The notes beneath the pieces are model-generated. The model had not been told where the DNA came from, did not search any database, and worked only from the letters and a program-made list of their open reading frames with translations. DNA of 64,000 nucleotides from Algoriphagus chordae (GTDB lineage Bacteria; Bacteroidota; Bacteroidia; Cytophagales; Cyclobacteriaceae). Positions 38,748-43,841 of this stretch are shown in pieces (position 1 is the stretch's first letter; each line of letters begins with the position of its first letter). The stretch lies in the NCBI RefSeq assembly GCF_003254055.1, contig NZ_QKZT01000001.1:372001-436000 (forward strand). The letters run 5' to 3'. The position numbers and the translations under genes are program-made.

Positions 38748-38785
38748 AAAAGGAGCGGGTGTTATACTCGCTCCTTTTTTCTTTT
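38748..38785 (+). terminator. Rho-independent terminator after secDF
   Basis: The 10-bp stem AAAAGGAGCG / CGCTCCTTTT (38748-38757 with 38769-38778), with an 11-nt loop and a T-rich tail, lies 23 bp past the secDF stop. Confidence 0.85.
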
Positions 38786-38863: not shown

Positions 38864-39265
38864 ATGAAAATCGATAAATCAGATTTCGAAAGCATGAAAG
38901 CCAAGTACGACAAAGAAGTCAAAAAAGGCAAAACTGCTAAAGGCAAAAAAGGTAAAGATAAATTAGACCAAACCAATTGGATATTTTTTGATAGAGAAAC
39001 CTTAGAGAAGCTATTGGCCAAAGCGGATAAGGATCCAAAAAAGGGAGGAATTCAGTTTTATATTACAGAATATACCGAGGAGGTCGCTACCAAGTACCAT
39101 CCAAAAGAAGTAGAGCAGTTAACCGGAGCATTGACGCTAGTGATGAGACCAGCAAATGTGGAGAATGAATTGGTTATCCCATTGCTAAAAGGAGGTGAAG
39201 ATGAGTATGAAAATAATGGTAGAATCTGTCCACCATATTGTGATCCAGAACCTACTAATACCTGA
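38864..39265 (+). CDS. Hypothetical protein with CPPYC tail
   Basis: 133 residues from ATG 38864 (MKIDKSDFESM); upstream in-frame sequence overlaps the secDF terminator and is not protein-like. The N-terminus is Lys-rich (KKGKTAKGKKGKDK), the middle has a small mixed fold, and the C-terminus ends NGRICPPYCDPEPTNT. There is no signal peptide. It stops 2 bp before the first of two paralogous membrane-protein genes, so it belongs to that operon. No family recognised. Confidence 0.7.
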   Translation: MKIDKSDFESMKAKYDKEVKKGKTAKGKKGKDKLDQTNWIFFDRETLEKLLAKADKDPKKGGIQFYITEYTEEVATKYHPKEVEQLTGALTLVMRPANVENELVIPLLKGGEDEYENNGRICPPYCDPEPTNT

Positions 39266-39267
39266 TA

Positions 39268-40053
39268 ATGGATAGTAGATTCTGGAAAGCATTTGGAGAT
39301 TGGTATCTATTTGCTATCGCTGCTTTTTTAGTGATAGGTACTTACTATTTTCTTAAGCTCAATAGAAAGGAACAGGCCAATAGTTATTATTGGCTGCCTT
39401 TTTTAATCCTTGTATTTACAGTTTTCTATGAAAATCTCGGTGCCTACACCAATTATAATTTTGAGTTCAAAAAATCTGTCAATGCGTTTTTGGGTAATAC
39501 TGAATTCCCAAAGTACAATCTCTGGGTATATAATCTTACTAATAAGCAGATTTCTACGATACTATATCTTTTTTTAATCAAAACCTGGCTGGAACCATCC
39601 AAAAAAAAGTACATCAATTGGATGTTGATTGTATTTGTGAGCGTTGCTATGTTTTTGCAATTATCTGGGATTGAACCGCTTTATTTAAATCAACCCTTCA
39701 TTTTTTCAATGGGAGCAAATATGATTTTGCTAGGAAGTGGGCTTTATTTTATAGGAATCATTACAAATGATATGTATTTGAAAGCCAATCCCTTCAGATT
39801 GCTTTCTTTCTGGCAATTAACTTTCCTTTTATTCACTTATTCTTTGACATACATTAATTCAATGACCATGATTTATCTTTATGAATTTAATGCTCCATTA
39901 GGTGAAAGTATAGGTCAAATAGATAGAGTTATGGGTGTCTTAAACAAAGCAATTCTTGTATTGATTATTGCCTCACCATTTTTAGGTAGATTTTTCGATC
40001 CTGAACCATTTAATGCTTCGAAAAAAGTATCTGATTTATCCACCCAAATTTGA
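39268..40053 (+). CDS. About 7-TM membrane protein, paralogue A
   Basis: 261 residues with about seven hydrophobic helices (near 12-29, 42-56, 93-109, 114-132, 140-164, 177-199, 226-246). It shares blocks with the next gene: ENLGAYTNYNFEFKKSVN, KKKYINWM, GANMIL and IASPFLGRFFD. The conserved loop after TM2 (YTNYN-EFKKSVN) may be a binding site. No known sensor family recognised. Together with paralogue B it precedes a kinase that has only one TM and no sensory domain, so a role as its membrane sensor is an attractive inference. Confidence 0.75.
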   Translation: MDSRFWKAFGDWYLFAIAAFLVIGTYYFLKLNRKEQANSYYWLPFLILVFTVFYENLGAYTNYNFEFKKSVNAFLGNTEFPKYNLWVYNLTNKQISTILYLFLIKTWLEPSKKKYINWMLIVFVSVAMFLQLSGIEPLYLNQPFIFSMGANMILLGSGLYFIGIITNDMYLKANPFRLLSFWQLTFLLFTYSLTYINSMTMIYLYEFNAPLGESIGQIDRVMGVLNKAILVLIIASPFLGRFFDPEPFNASKKVSDLSTQI

Positions 40054-40105
40054 TGTTGCTCATTGCTAGCAATCATGAATTTACAGATTTTCCAAAACAT
40101 GAGAG

Positions 40106-40873
40106 ATGGACAACAGATTGATTGAGGCCTTTTTCACAGCATATCCATTGACTTCAATTTCCTTGTACTTGATTATGATAATAGGCACAGTTTGTTTTTT
40201 TAGACTATCGAAAGATGAGAGAAAAAACATTCATTATTGGCTTCCTTTCTTAATCCTAAGTTTTACTTTTTGCTATGAAAATTTGGGGAACTACACGAAC
40301 TACAATTATGAATTCAAAAAGTCGGTCAATGAATATCTGGGGAATTTCAAATACCCCAAATTCAACCTCTGGCTATATAATGTAGCCACTAGGCAAATTG
40401 GCACTGTACTTTATTTGTTATTGATTAAATCCTGGACGAAGGCATCCAAAAAGAAATACATTAATTGGATGATAATTGTGTTTATCGTTACTGTCTGCCT
40501 CCTTCAGTTTTCAGGTGTAGAGCCTATTTATCTCAGCCAACCTATCATTTTTGCCTTGGGGGCAAATATGATTTTAGTAGCAGTTGCTTTCTATTTCATA
40601 GATTTGATTACAGATCCATTTTATTTGGCAAAAAAACCATTGAAATTAGTTTCATTTTGGCTGATGACTAGTATCCTGTTCTCAATTACATTGAGTTACA
40701 TTAGCTCTGTCACCTTGATGTATTTATATGAGGTCAACCCTATTTTGGGACAAGGGCTTCAGCAAATCCAGATCGTGATGAAAATCATCAGCTTAGGGGT
40801 ACTGACCTTGGTGATAGCATCTCCATTCCTACCTCGATTATTTGACAAAGAACTTTCCTATGAATCCTACTGA
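40106..40873 (+). CDS. About 7-TM membrane protein, paralogue B
   Basis: 255 residues, same topology as the preceding gene. Shared strings include ENLGNYTNYNYEFKKSVN, KKKYINWM, GANMIL and IASPFLPRLFD, so a tandem duplication is clear. Its 3' end overlaps the histidine kinase start by 14 bp, implying translational coupling with the kinase. Function unknown. Confidence 0.75.
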   Translation: MDNRLIEAFFTAYPLTSISLYLIMIIGTVCFFRLSKDERKNIHYWLPFLILSFTFCYENLGNYTNYNYEFKKSVNEYLGNFKYPKFNLWLYNVATRQIGTVLYLLLIKSWTKASKKKYINWMIIVFIVTVCLLQFSGVEPIYLSQPIIFALGANMILVAVAFYFIDLITDPFYLAKKPLKLVSFWLMTSILFSITLSYISSVTLMYLYEVNPILGQGLQQIQIVMKIISLGVLTLVIASPFLPRLFDKELSYESY

Positions 40874-41615
40874 AGACCAGATTTACGTTATTATTTTTAG
40901 TACACTCTTTTTGGGTGGCCTGATGTCTACATTTGTAGTCGCCATGGTTTTTATCCATAGGCAGAGGCAAGCCCAAAACAAACAAAAATTAGATCAGATC
41001 AAATTGGAACATGAAAAGACTCTATTGAATATCGAAAATGAAATTCAGCAGGAAACGCTGACTCATATCGGTAGGGAGTTGCATGATAATATTGGCCAGT
41101 TGCTATCCTTGGCCAAGTTGAATTTTGGATCTATCAAAGAGCATAAGCGTGAGGAAGGAAAAGAAATCCTAAACTTGGTGATTAAAGAAGTTAGAGGGCT
41201 ATCCAAGCAACTCAATCTAGACTGGGTAGAATCGATCAGTATCAATGAATTTATTGCTCAGCAGCTCGCACGCATCGAATCAACTGGATTTTGTCAAACT
41301 ACCCTACACGCAGATGTTGAGCTTGATGATTTGCCAAAAGATCAAAAGTTGGTACTTATCCGTGTGATTCAAGAATCTCTGAATAATGCGATCAAGCATG
41401 CTTCCCCGGAAAAAATAGAAATCAGAATAATGGAGAATAAGCGCGAAAAGCAAATTCTAATAACCGATAATGGCAAAGGATTTGACTCCTCGCAGAAATC
41501 CACTGGCTCTGGAATGTTCAATCTTAAGAAAAGAATGGAGACCGTTGGAGGAGAATTTAACCTGACTTCTGCTGTCGGAAAAGGAACAGAAATCAAATTA
41601 ATCTTGCCAAATTAG
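40860..41615 (+). CDS. NarL-type sensor histidine kinase (HisKA_3)
   Basis: 251 residues from ATG 40860; a TTG at 40842 in frame lies deeper inside the previous gene. One N-terminal TM (about 9-33), a coiled coil (35-65), a HisKA_3 domain with phospho-acceptor His75 in RELHDNIGQ, then HATPase with QESLNNAIKHA, TDNGKGFD and GSGMFNLKKRM. There is no periplasmic or PAS sensing domain, so the signal likely comes from a partner. The cognate regulator follows 56 bp downstream. Confidence 0.92.
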   Translation: MNPTEDQIYVIIFSTLFLGGLMSTFVVAMVFIHRQRQAQNKQKLDQIKLEHEKTLLNIENEIQQETLTHIGRELHDNIGQLLSLAKLNFGSIKEHKREEGKEILNLVIKEVRGLSKQLNLDWVESISINEFIAQQLARIESTGFCQTTLHADVELDDLPKDQKLVLIRVIQESLNNAIKHASPEKIEIRIMENKREKQILITDNGKGFDSSQKSTGSGMFNLKKRMETVGGEFNLTSAVGKGTEIKLILPN

Positions 41616-41671
41616 AATATAGGGTATAATTTGAAGTTTAATCCCCCCGAAGAACTAATTACCCTATTCTA

Positions 41672-42298
41672 ATGATCAGGATTGGCCTGGCTGACGACCA
41701 CAAATTATTTGCGAAAGGAATCGAAGGAATTCTCGAAGAAGAAGATGACCTGTTGGTTGTTGGTGTGTTTCCCAACGGCCAGGAACTCTGTGATTACATT
41801 GCTGAAAATGAGATCGATGTAGTACTGACGGATCTCAATATGCCGATTCTAGATGGATTTGGGGTCTTGGATCATTGTAAAAAGAAACACCCACATTTGA
41901 AGGTCGTTGTCCTCTCTATGTATGATGAGGAGAAGATCTATAAGAAATGTATTAGCCAAAAGGCAGATGCGTTTATTCTGAAAGATGCTGATCCTGATGA
42001 GTTGATTTTTACCATTCATGAAGTTTTTGAAGGTAGGCATGTGTTGAATTTTGACAGAGTCAAAAAACAAGCAATACAAGGTGCCTATTTTGATGCTTTT
42101 AGGATGAAATACAAACTTTCACGCAGAGAAACTGAAATCATCCAACTCATCAAGGATGGTATTCAAAATACGGAAATCGCCCAAATGCTGAACCTCAGTA
42201 AGCAAACTGTAGAGACGCATCGCAAAAATATTCACCTCAAGCTTCAGATCAGTTCTCGAATAGAACTGGTGAACAAGGCCCACGAAATGAACCTATAA
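41672..42298 (+). CDS. NarL/FixJ-type response regulator
   Basis: 208 residues. The receiver domain has acidic pocket ADDH (7-10), phospho-acceptor Asp54 in LTDLNMP and a Lys in FILKDAD. The C-terminal LuxR-type HTH has LSRRETEIIQLI and IAQMLNLSKQTVETHRKNI. It pairs with the kinase at 40860. The target is unknown, although the Gfo/Idh/MocA gene begins 3 bp after it. Confidence 0.94.
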   Translation: MIRIGLADDHKLFAKGIEGILEEEDDLLVVGVFPNGQELCDYIAENEIDVVLTDLNMPILDGFGVLDHCKKKHPHLKVVVLSMYDEEKIYKKCISQKADAFILKDADPDELIFTIHEVFEGRHVLNFDRVKKQAIQGAYFDAFRMKYKLSRRETEIIQLIKDGIQNTEIAQMLNLSKQTVETHRKNIHLKLQISSRIELVNKAHEMNL

Positions 42299-42301
42299 AT
42301 T

Positions 42302-43348
42302 ATGAGTACTCCTATTAAGACCGCTATCGTAGGCTTCGGCTCTGTGGCTGAAAAAATGCATGCCCCACTTATCGCCGTGTGTCCAGATCTTGAGCTGGTT
42401 GCCTCAGTGGAGCGCCGCACCAATCGCTGCGAGGAATTGTATGCTGGTGTGACCACTTACAGGAGTTTGGATGAATTACTTTCCGCAGATGTAGCTGATC
42501 TGATCGTGATCACTACACCCAATGAATACCACTTTCCTATGGCCATGCAATGCCTGGCAGCCGGAAAACATGTGGTGGTAGATAAGCCTGTGACAATCTT
42601 CTCGCATGAAGCTGAGCAGCTCAATAAGCTGGCAGATGAGAAAGGCTTGATCTGTTCGGTCTTTCATAATCGTCGCTACGATGGGGATTTTATGACGGTG
42701 CAGAAATTAATGCGTGAGGGGGATTTGGGAGATCTAGTTTATTTGGAGTCTCACTTTGATCGCTTTCGACCAGAAGTTTCTGAGAATTGGAGAGAAAAGG
42801 AAGTGCCTGGAAATGGAATCACTTATGACCTGGGTGCACATTTGATCGATCAGGTGGTCTTACTTTTTGGCCTGCCAAACTGGATTCATGCAGACATCCG
42901 CAAGCAGAGAACTGGTGCCGTTGCGGACGATTATTTTGAAATTATCATGGATTATGGTTCACTAGTAGCTAAGGTGACTGCAGGTGTTCTAGTGAATGTG
43001 CCTACTCCAAAGTTTTTGCTTTTGGGTAAAAAAGGCTCCTACCAAAAGTTTGGTTTGGATGTGCAGGAAGCAGCTTTCAAAGCTGGTGAAAAGCCAGAAG
43101 GCTCAACTTGGGGTGTGGAAACTGCGGAGAAGTGGGGAAATCTTTTCCTCAGCGAGGAGACCAGAGCTTACGAAACTATTCCGGGGAATTACAGAATTTT
43201 GTACCAAAACGTGGCAGACGCCATTTCGAAAGGCAGTTCGCTGGATATTACCATCCCGCAGACCATCAGTGTTTTGAAGATAATAGAAGCCTCATTTAAG
43301 AGCTCCGCAGAGGGGAAAAGAATTTCTAAAGCCGAGGGAGGCTGGTAA
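42302..43348 (+). CDS. Gfo/Idh/MocA family oxidoreductase
   Basis: 348 residues. N-terminal Rossmann fold VGFGSVAEKMHAP (residues 10-22); TTPNEYHFPMAMQCLAAGKH and VVDKPVT (the EKP-like motif, with Lys) near 75-100; and a C-terminal sugar-binding domain with YDLGAHLIDQ (about 180-189, catalytic His candidate). NAD(P)-dependent sugar or cyclitol oxidoreductase; substrate unknown. It follows the response regulator by 3 bp. Confidence 0.92.
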   Translation: MSTPIKTAIVGFGSVAEKMHAPLIAVCPDLELVASVERRTNRCEELYAGVTTYRSLDELLSADVADLIVITTPNEYHFPMAMQCLAAGKHVVVDKPVTIFSHEAEQLNKLADEKGLICSVFHNRRYDGDFMTVQKLMREGDLGDLVYLESHFDRFRPEVSENWREKEVPGNGITYDLGAHLIDQVVLLFGLPNWIHADIRKQRTGAVADDYFEIIMDYGSLVAKVTAGVLVNVPTPKFLLLGKKGSYQKFGLDVQEAAFKAGEKPEGSTWGVETAEKWGNLFLSEETRAYETIPGNYRILYQNVADAISKGSSLDITIPQTISVLKIIEASFKSSAEGKRISKAEGGW

Positions 43349-43406: not shown

Positions 43407-43841
43407 ATGAAAAAACTATTCCTCTTATCTCTCACCTTATTCACCTTTATCTCATTAGCGCAGGCACAGATTAGTGCAGGTGTCAATATCCAAAGCTCAG
43501 AGACTTTTGTAACTATAGGTACCAATCCGAATAACAAAATTTTTGGTGAAGGACGAATCGGAACTGGTGGGGACATCGGTGTAGAACTGATGGGAGCCTA
43601 TAATATCATCCAAAAAGATGATGTCAATTTTTATCTGGGTCTAGGGCTTGGGTTAGATGATGATCGAAACCACGATCATGATGACGACGATGACATCTAC
43701 ATAGCCTTACCATTTGGACTTTTAGTGACTCCCTTCAACAGTAAGAACCTCGGTCTAGTCCTAGAAGCAGCACCAATTCTGGCTGATGATCATGGAGATT
43801 ACTTCCGTGCTGGATTTGGCTTCAAATACACATTCAGATAA
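43407..43841 (+). CDS. Small outer-membrane-type protein with Asp/His-rich loop
   Basis: 144 residues with a signal peptide 1-21 (SLAQAQ). The remainder has beta-strand patterning with a terminal aromatic FKYTFR, as in small outer-membrane barrels. A loop DDDRNHDHDDDDDIY (about 88-102) is extremely acidic and could bind metal ions. No known family. A perfect terminator hairpin follows 22 bp downstream. Confidence 0.72.
   Translation: MKKLFLLSLTLFTFISLAQAQISAGVNIQSSETFVTIGTNPNNKIFGEGRIGTGGDIGVELMGAYNIIQKDDVNFYLGLGLGLDDDRNHDHDDDDDIYIALPFGLLVTPFNSKNLGLVLEAAPILADDHGDYFRAGFGFKYTFR

Follow-up and report, generated by a model that had tools for sequence, protein, structure and literature searches.

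How does a histidine kinase that carries no sensing domain of its own receive a signal? This question is raised by six genes at positions 38864-43348 of a 64,000-nucleotide stretch of the Algoriphagus chordae genome (Bacteroidota, Cyclobacteriaceae; positions 372,001 to 436,000 of contig NZ_QKZT01000001.1, assembly GCF_003254055.1), referred to here as the window. They lie head to tail on the + strand and encode, in order, a small protein with a CPPYC tail, two related proteins with about seven transmembrane segments (7-TM proteins A and B), a kinase with one transmembrane segment (TM), a LuxR-type response regulator, and an oxidoreductase (Table 1). A reading made from the bases alone (the first-pass annotation) had described this tight array and proposed that the 7-TM proteins form a separate membrane sensor pair for the kinase. 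All six genes are present, with positions and strand as described, and the kinase start (ATG at 40860) overlaps the end of 7-TM B (40873) by exactly the 14 bp that had been noted. Our observations concern gene linkage, architecture, conservation and predicted folds, and they suggest that the array probably encodes a split-receptor two-component system, in which the tail protein, a 7-TM protein and the one-TM kinase would together signal to the LuxR-type regulator.

The description of the kinase as a one-TM protein without a sensing domain is borne out by the Pfam search, in which only HisKA_3 (27.5 versus 24 bits) and HATPase_c (49.2 versus 26.4 bits) reach the cut-off, with a single TM ahead of them. 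The regulator exceeds the cut-offs of both Response_reg (82.8 versus 30.2 bits) and GerE (59.2 versus 23.5 bits). His75 of the kinase is invariant in 37 kinases, and its HRQRQ motif was invariant in the five kinases first aligned and is less strict farther out. Among 109 full-length kinases paired with 7-TM proteins, a simple hydropathy rule counts one TM in 99, two in eight and none in two; the start of the stretch with the highest hydrophobicity has its median at residue 13 and lies within residue 40 in 104 of the 109. The distance from the end of the TM to the phospho-accepting histidine, measured in the 100 of these 109 in which the H-box was found, has a median of 46 aa (interquartile range 45-48, range 34-180). 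This near-constant length between the membrane and the dimerization and histidine phosphotransfer (DHp) domain is consistent with movement of the TM helix by a partner.

The 7-TM proteins are the candidate partner, and their association with kinases was examined in 395 Bacteroidota genomes, one per species. A first 7-TM profile (8 rows) gave 27 matches in 22 of the genomes, and a kinase of the same type lies beside the 7-TM array in 26 of the 27 loci. The 27th match (L029) is permease-like, presumably related to amino-acid permeases, has no kinase match, and was rejected as a member of the family. A broader profile (59 rows), with at most seven candidates scored per genome, a maximum reached in G367, gave at least 148 matches in at least 77 of the 395 genomes, which belong to numerous families of Bacteroidota (f1 to f39). 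Three genomes (G136, G433 and G454) had only a false-positive match each, so that at least 74 carry the 7-TM family; genes overlooked by the profile turned up later, and three more genomes (G371, G394 and G425) were added through the small protein. The neighborhoods of these genes (L095-L248) contain 151 distinct closed 7-TM open reading frames (ORFs) that pass a size filter of 150-320 aa, which excluded L244; two false positives (L243 and L245) were removed before counting. A kinase lies next to 138 of the remaining 149, found by the HisKA_3-type profile in 133 cases and as a one-TM PAS-domain kinase in five (L175, L182 and three 7-TM genes in L186). The co-occurrence with HisKA_3 kinases across Bacteroidota that the first-pass annotation expected is therefore found, and the family is not one that occurs mostly away from kinases. 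Because the small protein had served to retrieve loci L095-L124, the count was also restricted to 7-TM-centered fetches, in which a kinase neighbor is present for 123 of 133. In 124 cases no other family gene stands between the 7-TM gene and the kinase, and 94 of them have a kinase frame that, when read from the earliest start codon available, abuts or overlaps the frame of the 7-TM gene. No fusion of a 7-TM protein to a kinase was found among the 149 ORFs (153-303 aa); the sole frame above 304 aa in the unfiltered table, a 507-aa match in G454 (E 2.6e-4), was dropped as false. The query P0002 had no relative in plasmids (tblastn, E 1e-3).

The kinases that follow the 7-TM genes in family f15 (L175:574-2574, L182:3068-5119 and L186:240-1475) have PAS domains and are not of the short HisKA_3 form. 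HisKA was seen in those of L182 and L186, and in that of L175 it was not seen at E 1e-5; their N-termini weakly match the same kinase profile (E 0.00015, 0.047 and 0.86). One of them also has a receiver domain, and their N-termini are hydrophobic like those of the other kinases.

The association also holds when approached from the kinase side, in three genomes: that of the window (G000), a genus mate (G082) and a distant one (G367). They contain 30 HisKA_3 matches, nine in frames of <300 aa and 21 in frames of at least 436 aa. All nine short kinases have a 7-TM neighbor, whereas none was found around the 21 long ones (19 stretches, about 5 kb on each side where the contig allows, profile E 0.01); Fisher's test, which does not allow for shared descent, gives 7e-8. 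The domain scan covered the seven long kinases of G000 and G082, which carry TPR, PAS and PilJ, or 7TMR-DISM regions. Thus, in these genomes, kinases too short to hold an input region have a 7-TM neighbor and long ones do not. A weak match to the small-protein profile near a long kinase of G367 (L334) is to an exported protein, which we take to resemble an outer-membrane lipoprotein carrier. With no 7-TM, kinase or CPPxC tail nearby, and a score below the limit of the small-protein genome search, it was regarded as false.

Closer relatives indicate which parts of the array belong together. All GTDB genome contigs were scanned with two short motifs of the small protein, which led to 30 loci in Cyclobacteriaceae or close kin, taken from named records and fetched through the small protein. 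The small protein, 7-TM protein, kinase and regulator occur together in 30 of 30, each locus having one kinase, one regulator, one to three 7-TM genes (at least 180 aa) and one or two small genes. The number of 7-TM copies is one in five loci, two in 15 and three in ten. SecDF lies near the module in 23 of the 30 and the oxidoreductase in 19; the latter was left out of the phylum-wide count. Between loci, the median best-pair identity is 43% for both the 7-TM and the small protein, 55% for the kinase, 57% for the regulator and 82% for SecDF, which suggests faster evolution at the input end than in the relay formed by kinase and regulator.

The claim that the two 7-TM proteins of the window are duplicated was correct: A and B are 53-55% identical, and A is modeled by AlphaFold2 with seven long helices. 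A tree of 74 7-TM proteins places 23 of the 27 copies that lie upstream of the small gene in a single clade, which, as judged from the tree, is an old duplication. A and B of the window group with the first 7-TM protein of G082 (100/93), with an Algoriphagus row nearby, and on this grouping the A/B pair is a later duplication. The proposal of a sensor pair must therefore be divided. Its linkage between 7-TM proteins and kinase stands; pairing as a general feature does not, since copy number runs from one to three and A and B separated late, and sensing is a role that the 7-TM proteins would have on our interpretation. The gene order in G082 is small protein, 7-TM, kinase, 7-TM, kinase (L007 and L031), which would be expected if a 7-TM protein and a kinase work as a unit. 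The two G082 kinases resemble each other closely along most of the sequence, and the second 7-TM protein is about 33% identical to A of the window. Short or split 7-TM ORFs that resemble decaying copies stand at the module in two loci (L070:7817-8305 and L085:7141-7596), as if 7-TM genes were gained and lost at a given locus.

The gene neighborhoods indicate that the module has a third conserved component, the small protein, which is linked to the 7-TM protein as tightly as the kinase is. A profile of 27 rows gave 48 matches in 36 of the 395 genomes, and all 48 adjoin a 7-TM gene or sit one small gene away; 30 of these placements were read, one shares L109 with a read one, 15 were taken by coordinates and two were read later. 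Its most constant part is the C-terminal tail, which reads NNGRICPPYC in the protein of the window: N117, C122, P123, P124 and C126 are invariant in 33 sequences, and NGG precedes CPPxC in many members. The tail extends beyond the reach of the profile. The motif C[P/G]x1-3C is present in the last 45 residues of 24 of 72 profile-undetected ORFs upstream of 7-TM genes, compared with three of 319 other ORFs (at least 150 aa) of the same loci (p 1e-16). Of the remaining undetected ORFs, some terminate in PP, SPPY or GSLYP, and others lack a recognizable tail. Among the members already detected, 25 of 63 have the strict cysteine tail, and many members, chiefly in families f6 and f7, retain N-x-G...PP without cysteines. 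Three profile sets of undetected ORFs (X, Y and Z) were picked by tail. By profile comparison, two of them are related to the small family (94% and 85%) and to each other (98.5%); the third, with GSLYP-like ends, reached 14%, so that its kinship is not shown, and SecF controls stayed at <1%. With the added profiles, a small-family neighbor lies within 1 kb of 113 of the 149 7-TM genes, leaving 36 without one.

The small protein matches no recognized family. The 27 rows gave only scattered weak matches in Pfam, three single-member matches in NCBIfam and two matches to PDB sequences (E 0.8-0.9), and a match to DUF7809 (E 0.0079) is under the Pfam cut-off. An AlphaFold2 model from 33 sequences has a predicted local distance difference test score (pLDDT) of 88.6, and a search of the PDB found no chain with Z of at least 2 among 331 and a best Foldseek E of 1.5, which is not proof of a new fold. 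The small proteins of L110 and L118 are similar, one with a lipobox and the other with no export signal, and have the same kinds of neighbor genes. A 250-aa ORF upstream of the 7-TM gene in L199 apparently contains two tandem copies of the small-protein domain. In L246 (252-2397) and L247 (8454-9947), which belong to two genera, a lipoprotein-type small protein and one or more 7-TM genes stand beside an apparent prolyl-tRNA synthetase gene.

The 7-TM family had not been recognized by the first-pass annotation, and it matches no Pfam, NCBIfam or PDB family here, including any known family of enzymes or transporters. In the window, neither 7-TM protein nor the small protein reached a Pfam or NCBIfam cut-off. 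The 59 members gave only scattered Pfam matches (14 families, with one or two members each, best E 0.0003), none in NCBIfam at E 0.01, and no relative among PDB sequences at E 1. A match of A to Per1 (E 0.07) is under the Pfam cut-off; the Per1 hydrolase group needs histidines, and A contains none. The AlphaFold2 model of A (59 sequences; pLDDT 92.4, predicted template modeling score 0.89) was compared with the PDB by Foldseek, whose matches are mostly G-protein-coupled receptors (GPCRs) and rhodopsins (best E 0.047, probability up to 0.99), with low-probability matches that include an acyl-CoA oxidase and a zinc transporter. All 50 entries listed by VIA-align are GPCRs, microbial rhodopsins or a designed GPCR-like fold. 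The positive-inside rule gives a topology with the N-terminus outside and the C-terminus inside: lysine plus arginine average 2.5, 3.4 and 2.4 per protein in loops 1 and 3 and the C-terminus, and 0.7, 0.4 and 0.9 in the N-terminus, loop 4 and loop 6, with a less distinct result for loops 2 and 5 (1.4 and 1.6). Conservation is highest at Y13, E55, N84, Y88, N89, F181 and W182; in the model, E55, N84, Y88 and N89 would lie toward the outer side, and F181 and W182 at the inner end of helix 6.

Systems with a similar division of labor are known. According to PMC7607045, UhpC of Escherichia coli senses external glucose 6-phosphate and stimulates UhpB. In UhpC-UhpB-UhpA, a separate polytopic membrane sensor thus interacts with a histidine kinase, as it would in the present array; the paper assigns UhpC to the major facilitator superfamily (MFS), to which we found no relation of the 7-TM family. 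MFS families are absent from the Pfam matches of the 59 members at E 0.1, and A, with 261 aa, has seven long helices. In NCBIfam the window kinase matches UhpB best (E 2e-26, 92.8 bits versus a cut-off of 408), and the UhpA model matches the regulator below its cut-off. In sensory rhodopsin II and HtrII, as PMC5292967 and PMC12917780 describe them, a heptahelical receptor acts in trans on a transducer with few TMs in a 2:2 complex. The 7-TM model resembles rhodopsins in arrangement; unlike sensory rhodopsin, however, the family has no conserved lysine in its last helix (none among the columns conserved in at least 70% of 59 rows, and the K227 column is Tyr in 44 of 59), so that no retinal is expected. 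Furthermore, HtrII is a chemotaxis-type transducer, whereas the 7-TM partner here would be the kinase itself.

Bacterial 7-TM receptors of the 7TMR-DISM group (PF07695) signal through kinases and have an outer region for which ligand binding is predicted, and according to PMC6107284 their 7-TM region is fused to a signaling or outer module, in contrast to the separate protein found here. None of the 59 members matches PF07695 at E 0.1, while the same model finds three other places in the genome; a relation suggested by hhalign with 59 rows (11.6%) fell to 1.1% with 260 rows and is not significant. HisKA_7TM (PF16927) is not among the Pfam matches, and hhalign gave 0.3% and 0.95%. The simplest account by analogy is that the module would work like UhpC-UhpB or sensory rhodopsin-Htr while being a member of neither family. 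We found no description of it in the open-access literature (most subscription journals were outside the search), and PMC11237479 and PMC12419801 deal with other gene neighborhoods.

We infer contact between the 7-TM protein and the kinase, the direction of signaling, sensing itself and the targets, and combine them in the following scheme. The 7-TM proteins would be the membrane receptor subunits of the input-less kinase, and the small protein an accessory subunit that binds them by its conserved C-terminal tail. The trigger would be a change in the complex of 7-TM protein and tail, by ligand binding, release of the tail or a redox change of its cysteines. This change would pass within the membrane to the TM of the kinase, and then through the linker of near-constant length to the DHp domain, and the kinase would phosphorylate the LuxR-type regulator. 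The neighboring oxidoreductase is possibly a target, named as a candidate solely because it is often next in line.

Several observations weigh against this scheme. Gene linkage does not show physical contact, and many loci share descent, so that the linkage counts are not independent events. Eleven of the 149 7-TM genes have no kinase alongside: two in L246 and one in L247, where only a small protein and 7-TM genes are present; an extra copy beside a complete set in each of L193 and L208; one in L248, beside a LuxR-type regulator; one in each of L209, L229, L235 and L241; and one in L109, which lies at the end of its locus and was counted only for that reason. The N-termini of 72 small proteins, classified by simple rules, include 22 with a lipobox, 14 with another hydrophobic start and 36 with no export signal, and such mixed signals do not fit a protein on one fixed side of the membrane. 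The structural evidence is also limited: Foldseek gave nothing under E 0.001, and the VIA-align scores (Z 12.9-11.5, root mean square deviation 4.0-6.9 Å) start below the value of about 13 that helical bundles can reach by arrangement alone, so that we claim a GPCR- or rhodopsin-like arrangement and not homology.

A more specific form of the split-receptor scheme, which we regard as tentative, is that the N/D-x-G-x-x-CPPxC tail is a built-in peptide agonist or plug in the 7-TM pocket; the variable body of the small protein would sense, the tail would set the state of the 7-TM protein, and the latter would drive the dimer of one-helix kinases. With equal caution, this might represent a phylum-wide peptide-receptor logic, like that of tethered-agonist GPCRs but coupled to histidine kinases.

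It is unlikely that the kinase TM itself feels membrane stress and that the 7-TM protein acts on the kinase as a membrane inhibitor or assembly factor, not as a receptor. LiaF, the accessory negative regulator of LiaRS according to PMC3543457, offers a precedent with the same set of membrane accessory protein, kinase and response regulator, and the kinases paired with the 7-TM proteins likewise expose little sequence outside the membrane. However, the one to three 7-TM copies and their fast change (43%, versus 55% for the kinase and 82% for SecDF) are more receptor-like than expected of a housekeeping brake, and the conserved polar residues E55, N84, Y88 and N89 suggest a binding site. The 7-TM members have no match to the LiaF family in Pfam or NCBIfam. 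To our knowledge, neither the LiaF system nor UhpABC includes a small tail protein.

Somewhat less likely again is an enzymatic or transport function of the 7-TM protein, with the small protein or a lipid as substrate and the kinase reading the working state of the 7-TM protein. A small protein with a constant C-terminal motif next to a polytopic protein would fit a substrate and its processing enzyme, and UhpC is a sensor from a transporter family according to PMC7607045. Against this, the members share no Pfam or NCBIfam enzyme or transporter family, and the list of 50 structural neighbors consists of receptors, rhodopsins (light-driven pumps among them) and a designed GPCR-like fold. We know of no catalytic set that E55, N84, Y88, N89, F181 and W182 would match.

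That the small protein is the secreted precursor of a peptide signal in a quorum-sensing circuit comparable to agr, with the 7-TM protein as peptide receptor or exporter, is very improbable: the shared array of small and polytopic protein, kinase and regulator, the variable gene number per locus (one or two small and one to three 7-TM genes) and the NGG ahead of CPPxC in many members would suit it, but the tail is nearly constant between species rather than variable, and the body of the small protein is confidently predicted to be a folded domain.

Positions of the genes and motifs of the array are given in Table 1. Directly after the oxidoreductase, 43407-43841 encodes a small protein with an export-signal-like start and an HDHDDDD run. 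A true 7TMR-DISM match (713-aa frame, G000:C1:370241-370840) lies about 1.2 kb before the start of the window in the same genome.

Table 1. Features of the split-receptor candidate array, in window coordinates
Feature	Position	Strand	Length	Remark
Terminator-like hairpin between secDF and the array	38748..38778	+	14 pairs	Consensus scan only
Small protein of the tail family	38864..39265	+	133 aa	No export signal seen
CPPYC tail codons	39227..39241	+		Small-protein residues 122-126
7-TM subunit A (putative)	39268..40053	+	261 aa	
7-TM subunit B (putative)	40106..40873	+	255 aa	
HisKA_3 histidine kinase	40860..41615	+	251 aa	One TM, no input domain
HRQRQ codons in the kinase	40956..40970	+		Just inside the TM
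Codon of presumed phospho-accepting His75 in the kinase	41082..41084	+		ELHDN box
NarL/LuxR-type response regulator	41672..42298	+	208 aa	Response_reg and GerE
Gfo/Idh/MocA oxidoreductase	42302..43348	+	348 aa	

On sequence and model evidence, the 7-TM protein, the one-TM kinase and the tail protein appear to make up a type of bacterial receptor that has not yet been named. If this is true, two unannotated protein families that are spread through Bacteroidota would gain a function, and there would be an explanation of how a class of sensor-less kinases receives its input. Because the subunits are separate genes that duplicate freely, partner specificity should be readable from their evolution and testable by gene swaps. 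The module would thus provide a small, genetically tractable model of a receptor-like heptahelical protein that controls a kinase in trans.

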